DNA from: Petrimonas sulfuriphila
GTDB lineage: Bacteria > Bacteroidota > Bacteroidia > Bacteroidales > Dysgonomonadaceae
Length of the DNA: 64,000 bases
Direction of reading: 5' to 3'
NCBI GenBank assembly: GCA_038561985.1
Contig: CP073276.1
Span: forward strand, 1,488,001 to 1,552,000
Part shown: positions 46,539 through 55,290 of the stretch, piece by piece
How positions within the stretch are numbered: position 1 is the first letter of the stretch
Layout of the letters: every line of letters begins with the position of its first letter
Program-made: the position numbers and the translations under genes
Notes under the pieces: generated by a model
The model's input: the letters and a program-made list of their open reading frames with translations, nothing else
Database searches by the model: none
What the model was told of the DNA's origin: nothing

Positions 46539-46949
46539 ATGAATGAAAAAACTATTGTAACCGGAGTGATTGGCGCTGATGTACATGCCGTAGGCAATAA
46601 GATTCTCGCTTTTGCTCTGGAACAGGCTGGATTCAAAGTGGTTAACCTGGGTGTTATGGTTGCACAGGAAGAATACATCGAAGCCGCACTGGAAACTAAC
46701 GCCGATGCTATTCTGGTATCTTCGCTTTACGGACATGGCGAAATTGATTGCCAGGGCTTGCGCGAAAAATGCGACGAAGCCGGGCTCAAAGAGATTCCGC
46801 TTTTGGCAGGTGGAAACCTGGTGGTAGGAAAACAAAACTTCGAAGAGGTAGAAAAGCGTTTCCTGGCTATGGGATTTACCCGGGTTTATCCACCGGGTAC
46901 GGCCGTGGAAAAGAGTATTGCCGATTTAAAAGAAATTCTCAATATCTGA
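46539..46949 (+). CDS. glmS: Methylaspartate mutase (glutamate mutase) S subunit
   Basis: A 136-residue cobalamin-binding subunit of B12-dependent glutamate mutase, which rearranges L-glutamate to (2S,3S)-3-methylaspartate. The base-off/His-on motif D-x-H-x-x-G is residues 14-19 (DVHAVG), with the usual [10 protein letters not shown] and GGNLVVGK loops. The open frame extends 57 bp upstream through the promoter, so ATG 46539 is the start. First gene of a nine-gene run to 55290. In some annotations named mutS; not the mismatch repair protein. Confidence 0.96.
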
Positions 46950-47014
46950 TTCGACGTTTCGTAACTATTTCCTCGCAGCTACCCAATTACTATTGAATAA
47001 CGCGCAGCATCACC

Positions 47015-48418
47015 ATGAACATTCTCACTGCAGATATCGGCAGCACCTATACCAAACTGACAGCAATTGATACCGCCAAGAAGGAGATTGTTGCAACCTC
47101 CTCAGCCTTTACCACCATCGATACCAATGTGGAGGAGGGTTTTACGGCTGCTTATAATAAATTGAAGCGACAGGCCGGAGCGTTCCGCTACGACGAACTG
47201 CTTTGTTGCAGCAGTGCTGCCGGAGGGTTGAAAATGGTTTCGCTGGGGCTGGTTCCCGAACTTACCGCTAAGGCGGCAAAACTTGCCGCAGCCAGTGCGG
47301 GAGCCAAAGTGGTCAAAACATATGCTTTTGAAATATCGCAGGCGGAACAGGCAGAAATTTTTGATATCCGTCCCGACCTGGTGTTGCTCTGCGGCGGAAC
47401 CGATGGCGGAAATAAGGAAGTTATTCTTGCCAATGCGCGCCGGTTGTGTCAGGTCGGGTGTCCGTTCACCGTGGTTGTAGCCGGTAACAAATGCGCATCG
47501 TTTGAGCTGGAAGAGATTTTCAGGGCATCGGGTAAACCGTTTGTGATAACCGAAAATGTTATGCCTGAGTTCAACCGGTTAAACATTGAACCTGCGCGGA
47601 GAAAAATAAAAGAATTGTTTATCAGCCGCATCATTGAAGCCAAAGGGCTTAGCCGCATTCAGGAAATGTGCAAAACCGATATAATCCCCACGCCGTTAGC
47701 GGTGTTAAATGCTTGTGAACTGCTGAGCAAAGGGACTAAAAACATGCCAGGATTAGGGGATTTGCTAGCTGTGGATATAGGAGGGGCGACCACGGACGTT
47801 TACTCCATCTCCGATGGCAGGCCCACCCTCGAAAACGTTACCGTGAAAGGACTTCCGGAACCCATTAGCAAACGTACCGTTGAGGGCGATCTGGGGATGC
47901 GCTACAGCCTTCCGTCGTTGGTGGACGAACTGGACTTGGATGCTTTTTCGAAGGAGTTAAGCATCGACAGGTCGGAGGTGATTGGCTGGGTAAGCACCTG
48001 CACGCAGCATCCCGGTTTGTTGGCGGAAGCTGAGTCCCGGGAACAAAAGATCGAGGAGCTGATAGCGCGTAATGCCGTGAAAATAGCCGTGGAAAGGCAC
48101 GCTGGTACCTATCAGCCAGTGTACACTCCTTTCGGACAGGTGTATACCCTTACAGGAAAAGACCTTGCCGCAGTACCGTTTGTTATCGGTATCGGAGGGG
48201 TTGTTATCAATGCCCGTCGGCCTCACGCCATTCTGGAAGGCGCTAAGCGGCAACCGGACGATCACGTGTTTGCCAAACCCGAACAGCCCGGTTATTTAAT
48301 CGATAAAAAATATATTTTTGCGTCTATGGGATTGCTTGGCTCAGCTTATCCCGATCTGGCGTTAGAATTGATGAAAAAAGAAACAATAAATCTGACTCAT
48401 TATGGAAATTTCCAATAA
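47015..48418 (+). CDS. glmL: Glutamate mutase accessory/reactivase-like ATPase GlmL
   Basis: A 467-residue ASKHA-fold (actin/hexokinase/Hsp70-like) ATPase. Phosphate loops [16 protein letters not shown] at the N-terminus and [16 protein letters not shown] near residue 250, plus the adenosine loop [11 protein letters not shown] near 395, are clear. The gene (mutL/glmL) always lies between the S and E subunit genes in glutamate mutase operons and is thought to reactivate or load the B12 enzyme. Its stop overlaps glmE by 17 bp. Not the mismatch repair MutL. Confidence 0.92.
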
Positions 48419-49853
48419 AAAACTTTCAACTGATGCTTTTTTTGCCGAACGTAAAGAAGTTCTCGGACACTGGCACACCGGAAAAGGTGTCGATTTCGAC
48501 GAAGCCGTGGCCTATCAACGGTCTATCCCCCGGGAGAAACGTTTTGGCTTAAAGCTGGCCCAAGCTGCCGAACAAAACGTAACCCTTATCCAGCCGCGTG
48601 CAGGAGTGGCGCTTTATGAGGAACATATTGAACTGCTCCGGTTTCTTGAGTCTGAAGGCGAAGCCGACCTGCTGCCCACCACCGTGGATAGCTACACACG
48701 CTTAAACCGTTACAACGAAGCTGAAACGGGAATTGAAAAAAGCAAAGAAACCGGGCGTTCCATGTTGAACGGCTTCCCTATCGTGAACTACGGAGTTGAT
48801 ATATGTCGCAAGGTAACCTCATCACTCCAAAATCCGGTTCAGGTCCGCCACGGCACTCCCGATGCCCGGTTGCTCACGGAAATCAGTATTGCCGGCGGGT
48901 TCACCTCATACGAAGGCGGCGGAATTTCCTACAACATACCCTATTCAAAGAATCATTCGCTTGAAAAAACCATTGCACACTGGCAATATACCGACAGGCT
49001 GGTCGGGCTTTACGAGGAAGCCGGTGTGTCTATCAACCGCGAGCCGTTCGGGCCCCTTACGGGAACATTGATATCTCCTTGTATCTCCAACTCGGTGGCC
49101 ATCATCGAGTCGTTACTTGCCGCCACCCAGGGGGTGAAAGACATTACGGTAGGATACGGACAGTGCGGGAACCTTATTCAGGACGTCGCCGCTATCCGTT
49201 CGCTGAATATCCTCACACGCGAGTACCTCGATAAATTCGGGTTCAACGATGTGCGCGTCACCACCGTTTTCCATCAATGGATGGGCGGATTTCCACAGGA
49301 TGAGGCCAAGGCTTTCGGGGTAATCTCGTGGGGTGCTGCCGCTGCTGTGCTGGCAAAAGCGACCAAAGTGATCGTGAAGACGCCGCACGAAGCCATGGGC
49401 GTGCCCACCAAGGAAGCTAATGCCGCCGGATTGCGTGCCTCCAAACAGTTGGTATCGATGCTGAAAGACCAGGACTTCCGCTCTATTCCCGCAGTTGTAG
49501 CCGAAAGCGAGATCATCATGAAGGAGATGCGTTGCATCCTGGAAAAAGTGGAGGAACTGGGGAAAGGCGACTTTGCTGTGGGTACGGTGGCCGCATTCGA
49601 AGCCGGAGTGCTGGATGTCCCGTTTGCTCCAAGCCGGTACAATGCCGGAAAAGTGATGCCCGCCCGCGATAACGTGGGAGCGGTTCGTTTTCTCGAAACC
49701 GGTAATATGCCGTTTACGCAGGATCTGATCGATTTTCACCGTCAGAAACTCGAAGAACGCGCACGGTACGAAAAACGGGCCGTCAGCTTCCAGATGGTTA
49801 TCGACGACGTATATGCCATCGGCAAGGGGTTTCTCGTTGGAAGGCCGAAATAA
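48402..49853 (+). CDS. glmE: Methylaspartate mutase (glutamate mutase) E subunit
   Basis: A 483-residue catalytic TIM-barrel subunit that binds glutamate and, with GlmS and adenosylcobalamin, runs the radical carbon-skeleton rearrangement. Recognisable family segments include [14 protein letters not shown] (substrate-binding Arg), [30 protein letters not shown], and [14 protein letters not shown]. Full length compared with the clostridial enzyme. Overlap with glmL and 27-bp spacing to the ammonia-lyase gene support cotranscription. Confidence 0.95.
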
Positions 49854-49880
49854 AATGAATGTCTATCAATCTAACAGAAT

Positions 49881-51098
49881 ATGAAAATTACAAAACTTAT
49901 CTGCGCTCCCGGGAAAACAGGCTTCTTCTTCGATGACCAGAAAGCCATCAAGCAAGGAGCAAAAAACGACGGGGCATTTTATGAAGGCGCGCCCGTAACG
50001 CAAGGGTTCACCGCGGTGCGTCAGGCCGGAGAGTCCGTCTCGGTTATTTTTATCCTCGAAAACGGAGCTTTCGCCCACGGCGACTGCGCTGCCGTCCAGT
50101 ATTCGGGAGCCGGTGGCCGTGATCCGCTTTTTCTGGCCGAAAACTTCATTCCCATTATCGAAAAAGAAATTGCACCGCTTTATGTAGGCAAAGAAATCAC
50201 TACTTTCCGTGAAATGGCAGATCGCGTGGATAAAGCCAATTACCATACAGCTATCCGCTATGGGGTTACACAGGCCTGCCTGGACGCCGTGGCAAAAAGC
50301 AAGGGGAAACTAATGGCGCAGGTGATTGCCGATGAATACGGAACGGAAATATCGAAAACCCTTATTCCTGTTTTTTCACAGTCGGGAGACGACCGTTACC
50401 TCAATGCCGATAAAATGATTATGAAAGCTGCCGACGTCTTGCCTCATGCGCTTTTCAACCATGTAGAGACCAAAGTGGGACTGAAGGGAGAAAAAATCAA
50501 AGCGTATATCCAGTGGCTCCGGGAGCGAATCCTGAAGCTGAAGCCTTTCGACAGCTATAATCCGGTTATACACATAGACGTTTACGGAACATTGGGTATT
50601 GTCTTCGATAACAATTTCGAAGCCATTGCCCGTTATGTGGGCGAGCTGGCAGAAATAGCAAAACCGTTTCACCTGCGCGTCGAAGGCCCGGTGGATATGG
50701 GAGAGAAAGCGGCTCAGATCGACGCGCTCCGCATTATCCGCCAAACGATGGAAAAAATGGAAATTACGGCAGAGATTGTTGCCGACGAGTGGTGTAATAC
50801 GCTCCAGGATGTCATCGACTTCTCCGAAAACAAGGCTGGACACATGGCGCAAATCAAAACACCCGATCTGGGAGGAATCAACAACAGCATAGAGGCTGTG
50901 CTGTACTGCAAGCAACACCATATGGGCGCCTACCTGGGCGGAACCTGCAACGAGACCAACCGTTCCGCCGAAATTGGAGCACACATTGCCATGGCTACTT
51001 CCCCCGTTCAATACCTTGCCAAACCCGGTATGGGCGTGGATGAAGGGTATATGATCGTTTACAACGAAATGAGCCGGATACTGGCACTTAACCATTAA
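49881..51098 (+). CDS. Methylaspartate ammonia-lyase
   Basis: A 405-residue enolase-superfamily enzyme deaminating 3-methylaspartate to mesaconate. Metal ligands: Asp in HIDVYGTLG, Glu in RVEGPVDMG, Asp in VADEWCN; the catalytic Lys is in AQIKTPDLGGINN; the substrate-binding His is in the FNHVETKVG segment. Length is that of the Clostridium tetanomorphum enzyme. It follows glmE by 27 bp and precedes the AtuA-like gene by 30 bp. Confidence 0.95.
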   Translation: MKITKLICAPGKTGFFFDDQKAIKQGAKNDGAFYEGAPVTQGFTAVRQAGESVSVIFILENGAFAHGDCAAVQYSGAGGRDPLFLAENFIPIIEKEIAPLYVGKEITTFREMADRVDKANYHTAIRYGVTQACLDAVAKSKGKLMAQVIADEYGTEISKTLIPVFSQSGDDRYLNADKMIMKAADVLPHALFNHVETKVGLKGEKIKAYIQWLRERILKLKPFDSYNPVIHIDVYGTLGIVFDNNFEAIARYVGELAEIAKPFHLRVEGPVDMGEKAAQIDALRIIRQTMEKMEITAEIVADEWCNTLQDVIDFSENKAGHMAQIKTPDLGGINNSIEAVLYCKQHHMGAYLGGTCNETNRSAEIGAHIAMATSPVQYLAKPGMGVDEGYMIVYNEMSRILALNH

Positions 51099-51128
51099 TT
51101 CACCCAAAAATTACTAAAAGCTGAAAAA

Positions 51129-52487
51129 ATGAAAGAACTGAGAATACTTTCGCCCACAGCCATCCTCGGATACGGATTTCCGATGGAATCGTTTGAGGAA
51201 GGAATGAAACGCAAACCGCACGTTATTGCGGTAGATGCCGGGTCAACCGATCCGGGTCCCTATTACCTGGGTGCAGGGAAATCGTTTACCGACCGGAATT
51301 CGGTGAAACGCGACCTTGAGATTATGATACCTGTCGCACTGGAAGCCGGAATTCCGGTTATCGTAGGTACGGCCGGCGGTTCGGGTGCGCGTCCTCACGT
51401 GGAGTTTGCGGTGGATATCGTGAAGGAGATCGCCCGAGAGAAAAGGCTGTCGTTTAAACTCGCCATTATACAATCGGAGTTCGATAAGGAATTGGTAAAA
51501 GAGAACCTGCGCAAAGGGAACATTTCGCCGCTTTATCCGGCTCCCGAAATAACCGAAGCCGATGTGGACGAATCGGTGCATATCGTAGCCCAGATGGGCG
51601 AAGAGCCGTTCATTGAAGCCTTGGAGAACGGAGCCAATGTTATACTTGCCGGACGGAGCTACGACCCGTCGGTTTTTTCGGCGCTCGCCATTAAAAACGG
51701 TTTCAACAAAGGATTGGCCATTCATCTGGGTAAAATCTTGGAGTGCGCTGCCATTGCCGCCCTGCCCGGTAGCGGAAGTGACTGTATGTTCGGCTATTTG
51801 CACGAAGACAATTTTGTTCTCGAACCGCTCTCGCCCCTGCGTAAATGCACCACGCTCTCGGTAGCTGCACACACGCTGTACGAAAAAACCAATCCCTATG
51901 TTCTACCCGGGCCGGGGGGAGCCATCAATTTGCACGAATCAAAATTCGAGCAGATAGACGACAATAAAGTACGCGTAAGCGGAAGCCGTTTTGTACCGAC
52001 CGAGGAGTATTTCGTGAAACTGGAAGGGGTTAAGCGTGTGGGATACAGAACCATTTCGTGCGCCGGAGTGAAGGACCCGATCATGATTACGAAAATAGAC
52101 AGCATTACCCAAAGCGTAAAAGAACGTGTGCAAAACAATTTTGAAACGTACGGAATTACCGACTTCTTCCTCGATTTCAAGATTTACGGGCGAAACGGTG
52201 TGATGGGCATGTTCCCCGATGCGCCACAACGTACCGGCGACGAGCTCCTGATCATCATCGAAGCTGTCGCACCCACACAAGAGCAAGCCGATACCATTTG
52301 CGGGTTCGCACGCAGTACTATGCTGCACTTTGGTTACGAAGGCCGGATAGCCACTGCCGGAAACCTGGCATTTCCGTTTTCTCCGTCCGATTGCAAGATG
52401 GGTGAGGTGTACGAGTTCAATGTGTACCATTTGATGAAAGTGGAGGATCCCAAAAAACTTTTCCCGATAGAATATATTCACTTCTAA
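51129..52487 (+). CDS. AtuA-like (DUF1446) protein
   Basis: A 452-residue cytosolic protein of the acyclic terpene utilisation AtuA-like family. Features: VIAVDAGSTDPGPYYLG near residue 35, IVGTAGGSGARPHVEFAVD near 75, NVILAGRSYDPSVF near 175, and GPGGAINLHESKFEQ near 258. The biochemical activity of this family is unsettled; in Pseudomonas atu loci it accompanies acyl-CoA carboxylation, often with a small partner protein. Here it sits inside a glutamate fermentation operon, between methylaspartate ammonia-lyase and a DUF4387 gene. A role with mesaconate, citramalate or its CoA derivative is inference. Confidence 0.82.
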   Translation: MKELRILSPTAILGYGFPMESFEEGMKRKPHVIAVDAGSTDPGPYYLGAGKSFTDRNSVKRDLEIMIPVALEAGIPVIVGTAGGSGARPHVEFAVDIVKEIAREKRLSFKLAIIQSEFDKELVKENLRKGNISPLYPAPEITEADVDESVHIVAQMGEEPFIEALENGANVILAGRSYDPSVFSALAIKNGFNKGLAIHLGKILECAAIAALPGSGSDCMFGYLHEDNFVLEPLSPLRKCTTLSVAAHTLYEKTNPYVLPGPGGAINLHESKFEQIDDNKVRVSGSRFVPTEEYFVKLEGVKRVGYRTISCAGVKDPIMITKIDSITQSVKERVQNNFETYGITDFFLDFKIYGRNGVMGMFPDAPQRTGDELLIIIEAVAPTQEQADTICGFARSTMLHFGYEGRIATAGNLAFPFSPSDCKMGEVYEFNVYHLMKVEDPKKLFPIEYIHF

Positions 52488-52498
52488 TAGATTGAAAA

Positions 52499-52572
52499 AG
52501 ATTGATTAAGATTTAAAACGGTCAGCCAACTATCAATCTCAGTCAATCTCAGTCAACCTCATTCGATCTCAA
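52499..52572 (+). repeat. Intercistronic 10-bp repeats forming an imperfect hairpin
   Basis: Four degenerate 10-bp units run from 52533 to 52572 (tcaatctcag twice, then tcaacctcat and tcgatctcaa). Within them 52535-52549 pairs with 52499-52513 over 15 positions with one mismatch and one G-U, around a 21-nt loop. No T-run follows. It separates the AtuA-like and DUF4387 genes and may act on mRNA processing or stability. Confidence 0.6.
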
Positions 52573-52588
52573 TTAAACTTCAAACGAA

Positions 52589-52906
52589 ATGAAATACAAC
52601 CTAACCGACGTAGCTTCCGTTATCCGGAGCAAAAATTCAGGGCCTTACGAACTCACGTTCGACATTATTTTCAAGGAGATGGACATGTATCAGCAAGTTA
52701 AATCGGCAAAAGTGTTTACCGCGCAAATGTTTGCTCTTCTTTACCACATTCCCGAATCGCAAATCATCAGCCTGGTACACTTCGATCCGGCCAAGGCGGT
52801 GAAAATTACGGTTGTGCGCCCCATCCCCTCCGGGGCATTGGGTGAGACCGATGTGTACGGAGCGCAACAGCATGCGCCGTTGATGAGGATGACATTCGAA
52901 TTATGA
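52589..52906 (+). CDS. DUF4387 protein
   Basis: A 105-residue cytosolic protein. It matches the DUF4387 pattern in VIRSKNSGPYELTFDIIF, YHIPESQIISLVHFDPAKAVK and TVVRPIPSGALGETDVYGAQQH. Proteins of this type are encoded next to AtuA-like proteins and are probably their partner subunit, comparable to the small C-terminal domain found fused in larger AtuA relatives. Function unknown. Overlaps the P-loop gene by 4 bp (ATGA). Confidence 0.82.
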   Translation: MKYNLTDVASVIRSKNSGPYELTFDIIFKEMDMYQQVKSAKVFTAQMFALLYHIPESQIISLVHFDPAKAVKITVVRPIPSGALGETDVYGAQQHAPLMRMTFEL

Positions 52907-53862
52907 GGGCACTGATTCAGGAATACATGGTGTCGTCGCAATATTTTGCGCCGCGCGGAAAAGAACGGTTGATGTTTCTGGGCGAACAGATTGCTCAACG
53001 GCACCTTTCCTACAACGATCGGCTGATAGGCATCGTGGGTGATGCCGGCTCTGGAAAATCATCGCTGATCAAGGGAATGTTTCCCGGCTTGGAACTAGCG
53101 AACGACGATGACGTTATCCATTCCCGGAAAATAATGCAGGTGCGCTCGCTTTCCGACGATTGGCATGATTCCACTACCTTTCATATCGATATGCGTTTCC
53201 AAACCGCTTTTACCCAGATGTTTGAAATCGTGGCGTGGGTACAAGACCTGTTGGCTCACCGGCGCAGGGTTATCGTGGAACATTTTAATCTTCTCTATCC
53301 CGCACTGGGTAGAAATGCCGATATTATCCTGGGGATTGGGGAGGAGATTATTGTATCGCGCCCTAGTGTTTTTGGGCCGCTTCCCGAAAGTATTTACCAA
53401 ATTGTGCATACTTCGCTCAAATTCCGCAAGATGGCCCATACAGCCGAAGACGTAACCATGCAGACATTGGAAGAGGACTACGGAATTACTGAAAATCGTT
53501 ATTTCTCATCCGACGTTCGCAATGGCTTTGTCCTGAAATTCAAGGAGAAGCCCGAAATCAACCTCGACGAACTGGAGCAGAGAGTAAAAGAACGCCTGGC
53601 CAGGCACCTCGAGGTGTCCTATTTTGACGAAGGGCACATTCGTTTGGGAGACAAGGTTATCCCGTGCGACGGTTCCCGATTCCATGTGAGAAATACATCG
53701 GAGATTACCGATTTTTCGCTGGCCAGGCATTTCATCTTTGATGCAAAGACCAATACCCACTGCCTGGTTGGATTGATTGACAAGTACACCGAGAACCTCG
53801 ACAACCGCAATACGCAGTATTTCCTTACCCGGAAATGTAGTGGCGACAATAACGAACAATAG
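52903..53862 (+). CDS. P-loop NTPase with C-terminal tRNA-synthetase SAD-like domain
   Basis: A 319-residue cytosolic protein. Residues about 35-200 are a P-loop domain: Walker A GDAGSGKSS at 46-54, a hydrophobic strand RRVIVEHFNLLYP near 122, reminiscent of uridine/nucleoside kinases. Residues about 215-319 contain GHIRLGDKVIPCDG and HVRNTSEI (244-268), which resemble the second additional domain of alanyl-/threonyl-tRNA synthetases. The synthetase zinc motif C-x3-H is here C255-x5-H261, and the preceding H-x3-H is absent, so editing activity is doubtful. It lies between DUF4387 and the fumarase-type hydratase genes of the glutamate operon. Activity unknown. Confidence 0.75.
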   Translation: MRALIQEYMVSSQYFAPRGKERLMFLGEQIAQRHLSYNDRLIGIVGDAGSGKSSLIKGMFPGLELANDDDVIHSRKIMQVRSLSDDWHDSTTFHIDMRFQTAFTQMFEIVAWVQDLLAHRRRVIVEHFNLLYPALGRNADIILGIGEEIIVSRPSVFGPLPESIYQIVHTSLKFRKMAHTAEDVTMQTLEEDYGITENRYFSSDVRNGFVLKFKEKPEINLDELEQRVKERLARHLEVSYFDEGHIRLGDKVIPCDGSRFHVRNTSEITDFSLARHFIFDAKTNTHCLVGLIDKYTENLDNRNTQYFLTRKCSGDNNEQ

Positions 53863-53863
53863 C

Positions 53864-54709
53864 ATGACAAGAAACATATCCGCATCCGCTATCACCCGTC
53901 TGGTAGAGCAACTTTGCATTGAAGCTTGCTGTGTTCTTGCTGGAGATATAAACAACAAGCTTAAAAGCTGCTTGCAAACCGAAACATCACCGCTCGGGAA
54001 AGAAATTCTGGGCACGCTTATTGAAAATGCCCGTGTTGCCCGGGAAGAGAGCAGCCCGATGTGCCAGGACACGGGAATGACCGTCGTTTTTGTACGCATG
54101 GGGCAAAACGTGCAGGTTACGGGTGGATTCATCGAAGATGCCATTAACCAGGGTGTACGGCAGGGATACGAAAAAGGATACCTGCGCAAATCGGTCGTGA
54201 AAGACCCGCTCCACCGAGAAAACACCCGGGACAATACACCGGCCGTTATTCATTACGAAATCGTCCCCGGTAATGTTTTTCATATAACTGTTTCTCCCAA
54301 AGGGTTTGGCAGCGAAAACAAAAGTGCATTAAAAATGCTCACACCCAGCGAAGGCGTTGAAGGCGTGAAGCGATTTGTACTGGAGACTGTTTCGGCTGCC
54401 GGAGGGAATCCCTGCCCGCCCATTATCGTGGGTGTGGGCATTGGCGGGACGATGGAACGGGCGGCTTATTTAAGCAAGAAAGCGTTGCTGCGGCCGCTGG
54501 ATACACAAAACCCCGATTCCGCACTTGCCGCTTTGGAAGCAGAATTGCTTTCAGAAATCAATAAGATGGGAATAGGCCCTGCCGGTTTCGGAGGAACCAC
54601 AACCGCACTCGGGGTAAATATACTGACCTATGCTACCCATATCGCCGGGCTTCCGGTTTCGGTAAATATCGGCTGCCACGCCACCCGGCATGCGGAGGGA
54701 AGTTTGTGA
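53864..54709 (+). CDS. Class I fumarase/tartrate dehydratase-type hydratase, alpha subunit (probable mesaconase)
   Basis: A 281-residue iron-sulfur subunit. Three Cys for the [4Fe-4S] cluster are visible: [31 protein letters not shown] and [12 protein letters not shown]. Class I two-subunit enzymes hydrate fumarate, tartrate or mesaconate; as the operon makes mesaconate, hydration to (S)-citramalate is the likely job (inference). ATG 53864, two bases after the P-loop stop, is chosen over an upstream frame that lies in that gene. The stop overlaps a possible GTG start of the beta subunit. Confidence 0.88.
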
Positions 54710-54732
54710 ACAGAAGCCAACAAAAACGTATT

Positions 54733-55290
54733 ATGGATAAAAAAATTCTTTGTGCCCCCTTTTCCGACGAAACCATCCGTTCGTTGAAAACGGGCGATAT
54801 GGTCTACATTTCGGGAACTGTTTATACAGCCCGCGATGAGGCGCACAGACGATTGTGCGAGATGATCCGCCGGGGCGAGCCGATGCCTTTTGATATTGAA
54901 GGGCAGGCCGTTTACTATGCCGGCCCGGCTCCTGCCAAACCGGGCAAGCCCATAGGATCGGTAGGCCCCACTACCGGTGGGCGGATGGACGCTTATTCGC
55001 CCTCCCTCATTGCCCGCGGCCTCAAGGTGATGATCGGTAAAGGAACACGCAGTGCCCAAGTGGTAGATGCCATGAAACAATACACGGGCGTTTATTTTGC
55101 TGCAATCGGTGGTGCCGCCGCCCTTATGGCAAAATGCGTGGAAAGTGCAGAGGTTATCGCTTTTGAAGAGTTGGGCACGGAGGCTGTTCGCCGCTTAACT
55201 GTGAAAGAACTTCCCGTGGTTGTTGCGATAGACTGTCGGGGAAACGATGTGTATAAACTGGCCCGGGAGATGTACGAGCAATCAATTTAA
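54733..55290 (+). CDS. Class I fumarase/tartrate dehydratase-type hydratase, beta subunit
   Basis: A 185-residue swivelling-domain subunit pairing with the alpha subunit. Family blocks: SLKTGDMVYISGTVYTARDEAHRRL, GPAPAKPGKPIGSVGPTT, and MIGKGTRSAQVVDAM. The frame may also start at GTG 54706, overlapping the alpha stop; ATG 54733 gives the usual N-terminus. Last gene of the methylaspartate operon. Citramalate lyase, which would finish the route to acetate and pyruvate, is not in the window. Confidence 0.88.
   Translation: MDKKILCAPFSDETIRSLKTGDMVYISGTVYTARDEAHRRLCEMIRRGEPMPFDIEGQAVYYAGPAPAKPGKPIGSVGPTTGGRMDAYSPSLIARGLKVMIGKGTRSAQVVDAMKQYTGVYFAAIGGAAALMAKCVESAEVIAFEELGTEAVRRLTVKELPVVVAIDCRGNDVYKLAREMYEQSI

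Follow-up and report, generated by a model that had tools for sequence, protein, structure and literature searches.

The 64,000-nucleotide stretch of the Petrimonas sulfuriphila genome analysed here (hereafter the window; contig CP073276.1, positions 1,488,001 to 1,552,000, of a genome that is one contig of 3.83 Mb) carries nine genes arranged head to tail on the + strand at positions 46539-55290. The first four are genes of the methylaspartate pathway of glutamate fermentation; these are followed by an AtuA-type (DUF1446) gene, a DUF4387 gene, the gene of a P-loop protein with a SAD-like C-terminal part (the P-loop/SAD protein), and two genes for a fumarase-type hydratase. As judged from sequence, the operon very probably encodes the whole methylaspartate route from glutamate to pyruvate and acetate, with the AtuA/DUF4387 pair as a predicted CmlAB-type citramalate lyase and the P-loop/SAD protein as a separate accessory. 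In window coordinates the genes are:

46539-46949, + strand: glmS, glutamate (methylaspartate) mutase B12-binding subunit (NCBIfam TIGR01501, 198 bits, cut-off 136)
47015-48418, + strand: glmL (mutL), glutamate mutase accessory protein (NCBIfam NF040745, 613 bits, cut-off 475)
48402-49853, + strand: glmE, glutamate mutase catalytic subunit (NCBIfam TIGR01503, 765 bits, cut-off 390)
49881-51098, + strand: mal, methylaspartate ammonia-lyase (NCBIfam TIGR01502, 566 bits, cut-off 286)
51129-52487, + strand: cmlA-type gene (Pfam AtuA/DUF1446, 86 bits), predicted citramalate lyase subunit A (PDB 9ERQ/9EVF chain A)
52589-52906, + strand: cmlB-type gene (Pfam DUF4387, 138 bits), predicted citramalate lyase subunit B (PDB 9ERQ/9EVF chain B)
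52903-53862, + strand: P-loop/SAD protein of 319 residues, N-terminal TsaE-like ATPase and C-terminal part like the AlaX/AlaRS editing domain (structure model, Foldseek, family profiles)
53864-54709, + strand: mesaconase/fumarase-type hydratase alpha (TTG start at 53777 in the list of open reading frames; Pfam Fumerase, 395 bits; NCBIfam NF004885 over cut-off)
54733-55290, + strand: mesaconase/fumarase-type hydratase beta (possible upstream GTG at 54706; Pfam Fumerase_C, 203 bits; NCBIfam NF005310 over cut-off)

The same-strand operon is real: open reading frame coordinates, NCBIfam and Pfam together confirm the genes, their order, strand and positions as given by a first-pass annotation of this DNA. 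The products of glmS, glmL, glmE and mal score above the NCBIfam equivalog cut-offs and are thus orthologues of the methylaspartate pathway enzymes, as that annotation had held; GlmE of Petrimonas sp. IBARAKI is 99% identical to that of the window. Pfam cut-offs are passed by the AtuA, DUF4387, Fumerase and Fumerase_C products, and the Pfam search of window proteins gave no family over cut-off for the P-loop/SAD protein. The DUF4387 and P-loop genes overlap by 4 bases and a single base separates the P-loop gene from hydratase alpha; the spacer between AtuA and DUF4387 is 101 bases long. Within that spacer (52488-52588) lie two short tandem arrays, both imperfect and with a 10-base period (52489-52518 and 52533-52571), the units of which share TCAATCT on opposite strands. 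Promoter and terminator scans gave results near chance (9 and 16 found, 10.6 and 12.9 expected).

In a sequence search of solved structures, the window AtuA protein matches chain A of PDB 9ERQ/9EVF (E=1.2e-156, 525 bits, query residues 4-443 of 452) and the DUF4387 protein matches chain B (E=1.8e-29, residues 1-104). The depositors name these chains 'Citramalate lyase, subunit A (cmlA)' and 'Citramalate lyase, subunit B (cmlB)'. Since both chains are matched, the operon probably includes a citramalate lyase and so, on paper, every step of the pathway; the first-pass annotation had recorded no such enzyme here. Relatives of the pair are already named, and solved structurally, by others. ECs_0760 of E. 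coli O157:H7 Sakai, encoded after mal, aligns end to end with 9ERQ_A (all 456 residues, 970 bits), and the adjoining gene, ECs_0759, encodes a DUF4387 protein. The window AtuA retains all 111 positions that are invariant in 23 other members of the CmlA clade, among them the E. coli protein. A tree of 30 AtuA proteins places the window protein inside a well-supported set of 20 proteins from methylaspartate clusters, with the E. coli, Klebsiella-plasmid and Neorhizobium proteins joining just outside this set through weak forks. On the basis of homology, gene context and the depositors' naming, the pair is most likely a CmlAB-type citramalate lyase.

A DUF1446 gene after mal was described by Kronen and Berg in 2015 in Enterobacteriaceae and in Dictyoglomus. 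In the part of their paper drawn on here (PMC4682846), O157:H7 cells on citrate, acetate or propionate are without citramalate lyase activity, the fate of citramalate is left unclear, and no condition was found under which the O157:H7 cluster was expressed. Because the cluster was never seen expressed, the negative lyase result is neutral with regard to the AtuA/DUF4387 pair, and the gap in citramalate metabolism left by these authors is the step that the pair would fill. A DUF1446 group and methylaspartate mutase E also figure among colorectal-cancer features in a machine-learning paper (PMC8748837, in part), from which nothing is drawn.

The survey of gene context covers the 80 best of 572 glmE loci from a scan of one genome per species, a set in which relatives of the window are over-represented. 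Queries from the window, Peptoclostridium acidaminophilum, E. coli and Ensifer served to mark the locus genes by tblastn. A locus counted as informative (58/80) if 4 kb or more of sequence followed mal, or followed glmE in loci lacking mal; the 4-kb cut was our own choice. The genomes counted are phylogenetically non-independent. AtuA is present in 43 of the 58 informative loci, DUF4387 in every one of these 43, and the P-loop gene in 48 of the 58: the extra genes go with the pathway, as first proposed, and the locus survey finds the trio in other glmE operons. Over all 80 loci AtuA was marked in 50, DUF4387 in 47 and cit genes in 14. The nearest marked gene upstream of AtuA is mal in 50/50 AtuA-bearing loci (gap 11-272 bases), and the nearest downstream is DUF4387 in 47/50; in the three AtuA loci without DUF4387 (L052, L055 and L083) the sequence ends no more than 0.8 kb from mal. 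The mal-AtuA-DUF4387 arrangement is beyond chance.

Matches to citD, citE or citF were found in none of the 43 informative AtuA loci versus 8 of the 15 without AtuA (Fisher p=3.4e-6, for genomes that are not independent). No match to citC, citD, citE, citF, citX or CaiB/CitE was obtained by tblastn in any of the 50 AtuA loci, and a genome-wide search found DUF4387 in none of the 14 genomes with cit-type loci. Sixteen loci have neither AtuA nor cit genes; DUF4387 is present in two of the nine among them that were searched genome-wide. In the window's own genome, the only one covered by the genome-wide search for CitF, this protein was not found over the Pfam cut-off (best match 23 bits against a 27-bit cut-off, over 94 of 466 positions). 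In three alphaproteobacterial plasmid clusters, mal is followed by genes for a CaiB-type coenzyme A (CoA) transferase and a CoA ester lyase of the CitE type, in the place of AtuA/DUF4387. It thus seems that the methylaspartate pathway can end in any of three interchangeable ways – AtuA/DUF4387, citDEF-type, and CaiB plus CitE – and because the ends appear interchangeable, the lyase role of the pair is backed beyond homology.

In the route proposed, GlmSE and GlmL would convert glutamate to 3-methylaspartate, from which Mal would remove ammonia to give mesaconate. The two-subunit hydratase, by its membership of the class I fumarase family, is predicted to hydrate mesaconate to (S)-citramalate, and the AtuA/DUF4387 pair to cleave citramalate to pyruvate and free acetate. 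Citrate-lyase-like enzymes depend on CitC and CitX, and use an acyl carrier protein that bears a special prosthetic group. Because AtuA loci hold no cit match, the pair probably cleaves free citramalate, and it may work without CoA, acyl carrier protein or a prosthetic group of the citrate-lyase type. The earlier suggestion that the extra proteins act on an intermediate, or else repair or activate an enzyme, is divided: for AtuA/DUF4387 it gives way to a probable lyase of a known type, while repair or activation is possible for the P-loop protein.

Several observations weigh against the lyase reading. The window AtuA is 54% identical to the E. coli protein, and the forks of the AtuA tree that unite these two proteins apart from the others are weak (80/41 and 82/43). 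No publication on 9ERQ/9EVF was found among the openly licensed papers searched; the function is that of the deposited molecule names. In Prevotella intermedia without iron, mal is raised 2.3-fold and an AtuA entry (two adjacent loci) 2.2-2.5-fold, a joint rise that in itself counts in favour of the pair, while the remaining cluster genes are not in the table of 2-fold-raised genes (PMC10434189, Table 3, in part), so that joint regulation is shown by this part of the paper for mal and AtuA only. Eleven of the 43 AtuA loci are without a class I hydratase gene in the stretch examined. Finally, distant AtuA/DUF4387 pairs (35-44% identity; Variovorax, Methylobacterium, Halomarina, Cupriavidus) occupy other gene contexts, and the family therefore probably has more than one substrate. 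With pairs also lying near genes for a tricarboxylate transporter, RraA, a citrate synthase-like protein and an aldehyde dehydrogenase, and with the hydratase missing from those eleven loci, AtuA/DUF4387 might in this organism be a lyase or isomerase of some neighbouring metabolite (mesaconate, 3-methylmalate or a CoA ester). We think this quite unlikely: the 54% identity is to a protein that aligns with 9ERQ_A from end to end, every clade-invariant residue is kept, the position after mal is the same, and the pair and the cit genes exclude one another.

A similar question attaches to the hydratase, which might be an ordinary fumarase there by chance, mesaconate being hydrated elsewhere. Its NCBIfam matches are to generic fumarate hydratase/Fe-S hydro-lyase models, and class I fumarases take both substrates (PMC4682846, in part). 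Chance placement is nonetheless hard to credit, given that class I hydratase genes are found in 38 of the 58 informative glmE loci and that, on two plasmids with no glmE in the stretch, a class I hydratase shares gene runs with AtuA/DUF4387. A mesaconase followed by a CmlAB-type lyase stays the preferred reading of the end of the pathway.

The two plasmids are pHNLC3 of Klebsiella pneumoniae (L124) and a plasmid of Neorhizobium galegae (L125), both typed conjugative: their AtuA-DUF4387 pairs are 57-58% identical to those of the window and form gene runs together with fumarase (class I) and dehydrogenase genes. These runs are perhaps mesaconate/citramalate routes with a source other than glutamate. 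A distant pair on a plasmid of the archaeon Halomarina (L128) lies near CoA-transferase and CoA ester lyase genes; a plasmid of Cupriavidus oxalaticus (L129) has two distant pairs, near citrate synthase-like and tricarboxylate transporter genes. Six glmE loci (L064, L066, L067, L069, L072 and L073) have a single-chain FumD-like hydratase on the opposite strand, upstream of glmS; the P-loop gene is present in four of them, L072 and L073 being without. In genome G349 (locus L181), fumAB-like genes adjoin a distant glmSLE set whose GlmE is 39% identical; about 6-7 kb further on come more genes like fumAB, together with an AtuA gene that is 53% identical and is cut by the end of the stretch.

The P-loop/SAD gene is distributed differently from the pair. 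It is present in 38/43 informative loci with AtuA, in 5/8 with cit genes and in 5/7 with neither. A protein of P. acidaminophilum encoded, unannotated, between citX and citC is 45% identical to the P-loop/SAD protein over 301 residues; since this homologue sits among cit genes, the protein is not specific to the AtuA pair. Conversely, tblastn did not find the gene in the 35-kb stretch of E. coli O157:H7 Sakai that holds AtuA/DUF4387 (the stretch only, not the whole genome), nor in the three alphaproteobacterial stretches, likewise searched as stretches only. The three proteins had been put forward as one undescribed module; because the P-loop gene is separable from AtuA/DUF4387, in cit loci and in the Sakai stretch, we reject this.

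For genome-wide surveys GlmE matches were counted at E<1e-200 only, which dropped 9/10 in the phylum (among them G126, whose 26.9 bits barely exceed the cut-off), 2/16 in Clostridia (G525, and G349 with E=2.8e-126) and 4/25 in the family. Weak P-loop matches in 3/198 Bacteroidota genomes (E 7.4e-4 to 9.1e-4) and 14/291 Clostridia (E 1.8e-5 to 8.9e-4) were taken as chance. Among the 198 Bacteroidota genomes, a strong match to the P-loop protein, GlmE or DUF4387 occurs in the window's own genome only. In the family, the P-loop gene, DUF4387 and glmE are held by the identical 21 of 101 genomes, and four genomes of the same genus are without all three alike. A 22nd family genome (G262), with a true-looking 64-residue piece of glmE at a contig end and no P-loop or DUF4387 match, speaks mildly against perfect overlap. 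Ten of the 291 Clostridia have a strong P-loop match (E<1e-100), and nine of these are among the 14 strong-glmE genomes (Fisher p=5.4e-13); in the tenth (G393) no glmE was seen, and mal, AtuA and DUF4387 are the neighbours of the P-loop gene on a 7.8-kb contig. The five strong-glmE Clostridia without a P-loop gene genome-wide are all of the mal-fumAB-citDEF kind; in the Clostridia profile search at most seven candidates were scored per genome, and absences there are less sure. Fifteen genomes are without a P-loop gene in the glmE locus: a genome-wide search found it elsewhere in seven, where several loci are cut by contig ends and the gene possibly belongs to the same cluster, and eight are without it. 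The P-loop/SAD gene tracks the methylaspartate pathway, not the type of lyase: it looks like a separate accessory of that pathway, conserved and tightly linked.

In 55 loci the next marked gene upstream of the P-loop gene is DUF4387 in 40 and mal in five, and the hydratase is next downstream in 33. Where clusters are split the gene goes with the first half of the pathway: in G320 it lies with glmSLE-mal, AtuA-DUF4387-fumAB being on another contig, and in L076 with glmSLE and a cobalamin (corrinoid) adenosyltransferase gene. We therefore lean towards the methylaspartate-making half as its partner. No pathway gene was found in the roughly 18 kb examined around the P-loop gene of G303 (8-9 kb each side) and G312, and in G302 the contig ends 1.1 kb from it. 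The neighbours of off-cluster P-loop genes (BipA, nitroreductase and AMP-binding/aminotransferase genes) led nowhere as a clue to function. The gene appears in two pieces in Prevotella aurantiaca (L070 14772-15697), as do both the P-loop and glmL genes in Clostridioides mangenotii (L081 7600-8477 and 1607-2973), owing to frameshifts, stops or sequencing errors. Genome G269 has two full-length glmE genes on different contigs (C30 and C32) and one P-loop match.

The structure model of the P-loop/SAD protein is confident (predicted local distance difference test, pLDDT, 86.5; predicted template-modelling score, pTM, 0.82). In a Foldseek search TsaE ranks first (E 1.1e-5 to 5.3e-5; template-modelling (TM) score by target 0.53-0.60; root-mean-square deviation (rmsd) 5.4-7.9); AlaX-M, an enzyme of trans-editing, comes fourth (E 4.2e-5, probability 1.00, TM score by target just 0.42-0.46); the aminotransferase matches that follow were set aside (rmsd about 13-15). 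By sequence, the alignment with TsaE covers only 38 columns round the Walker A motif (E=6.8e-5), and rsgA, another P-loop protein, scores there too (E=4.2e-4), so that kinship with TsaE rests mainly on fold; sequence matches of the Walker A region in the PDB led nowhere. A SAD-like part of about 150 residues extends beyond the TsaE-like part at the C terminus, and the protein is thus not a single-domain TsaE.

For 30 family members, searches at E<=0.1 match tRNA_SAD in 20 (best 1.3e-4) and, weakly, TsaE in 16. The first-pass label 'SAD-like' has these matches and AlaX-M in its favour; against it, the window protein itself has no tRNA_SAD match at that threshold, and the TM score is low. The C-terminal part, taken as a profile, aligns with the editing domain of E. 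coli AlaRS (hhalign E=1.9e-4, probability 48%; five other E. coli proteins give E 0.03-0.36). HxxxH and CxxxH form the metal-site motif of the AlaX/AlaRS editing domain. The canonical motif is absent from the P-loop/SAD family, which has HTAED-type and CxGPRxH-type sequences in its place: hhalign pairs HSATH of AlaRS with HTAED, and CGGTH with CxGPRxH. At the positions aligned with the metal site, H179, D or E183 and C255 are conserved in 30/30 members and H261 in 29/30; the Walker A residues, H94, D96, E126, H127, F128, H179, E182, C255 and R259 are invariant in all 30.

For the role of the protein, we would first think of ATP-dependent help to, or sensing of, one of the pathway enzymes, such as the B12-dependent mutase or the iron-sulfur hydratase. 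The invariant Walker A motif and TsaE-like ATPase fold would suit such a role, as would its presence with the pathway whichever the lyase, its usual place between DUF4387 and the hydratase, and its company in G320 and L076. The guess is a tentative one, which we hold to be slightly more doubtful than probable: the gene has no constant partner and in G303 and G312 no pathway gene near it, the mutase is already served by GlmL, and the protein is missing from five strong-glmE Clostridia, from 8/15 of the other glmE genomes without a copy in the locus, and from the Sakai and alphaproteobacterial stretches. Since several glmE genomes or stretches are without the gene, the pathway can do without the protein.

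The boldest reading would make it an ATPase-coupled trans-editing enzyme that clears 3-methylaspartate from mischarged tRNA-Asp. It takes in both halves of the molecule – the C-terminal likeness to the editing domain (Foldseek, tRNA_SAD and hhalign alike), with family-wide conservation at the metal-site-aligned positions, and the resemblance of the N-terminal half to TsaE, a tRNA-modification factor – and the fact that the protein follows the genes that make methylaspartate, whichever the pathway end. We consider it improbable. Asp or Glu replaces one His and C-x3-H has become C-x5-H, which makes catalysis uncertain; the hhalign probability and the TM score to AlaX-M are low; some glmE genomes are without the protein; and the part of the matching literature consulted makes no mention of methylaspartate. 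If true, the protein would be a pathway-specific translation-fidelity factor in organisms that make 3-methylaspartate, an aspartate analogue, as a bulk fermentation intermediate.

On paper, assignment of the AtuA/DUF4387 pair as a citramalate lyase would close the last step of glutamate fermentation in those clusters of Bacteroidota, Spirochaetota, Synergistota and Clostridia that have no citrate-lyase-like enzyme. The analysis also isolates a well-conserved protein, part TsaE-like ATPase and part like an editing domain, whose occurrence follows methylaspartate production.

The closest known system is CmlAB itself (9ERQ, 9EVF): both subunits are shared by sequence, the genes are adjacent, and the position after mal is that of the enterobacterial cluster. 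The latter differs in having a single-chain FumD, a transporter and cobA, whereas the window has a two-subunit hydratase and the P-loop/SAD gene. The clostridial citDEF-type cluster of P. acidaminophilum (PMC4682846, in part) has the same glmS-glmL-glmE-mal start and, in some members, the P-loop/SAD gene, but uses CitDEF with CitC and CitX, none of which was found by tblastn in the window's cluster (L044). The alphaproteobacterial glmSLE-mal-CaiB-CitE-fumarase clusters share the pathway start and a class I hydratase; a CoA-transferase and a CoA ester lyase replace AtuA/DUF4387, and the P-loop/SAD gene was not found in the stretches.

A more distant likeness is to the AtuA of terpene degraders. 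LiuE, too, has been proposed for the 3-hydroxy-3-isohexenylglutaryl-CoA lyase step. AtuA is entered under this acetate-releasing step among enzymes 'characterized or tentatively identified' (PMC4847356, in part). Pfam AtuA is common to both systems, and both would release free acetate from a tertiary alcohol, which in conjunction suggests that AtuA proteins may be lyases freeing acetate from 3-hydroxy-carboxylates, as far as this part of the source goes. The Novosphingobium example is by contrast a 607-residue chain with an AtuA_ferredoxin domain, to which DUF4387 has no sequence match; the idea that DUF4387 is this domain detached is unsupported (hhalign probability 0.7% and 2.7%, sequence profiles only). 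The P-loop/SAD protein, for its part, resembles in its two parts TsaE, the ATPase of t6A synthesis, and the AlaX/AlaRS editing domain, but differs from both in joining them in one chain, with an altered metal-site motif and an occurrence tied to methylaspartate genes.

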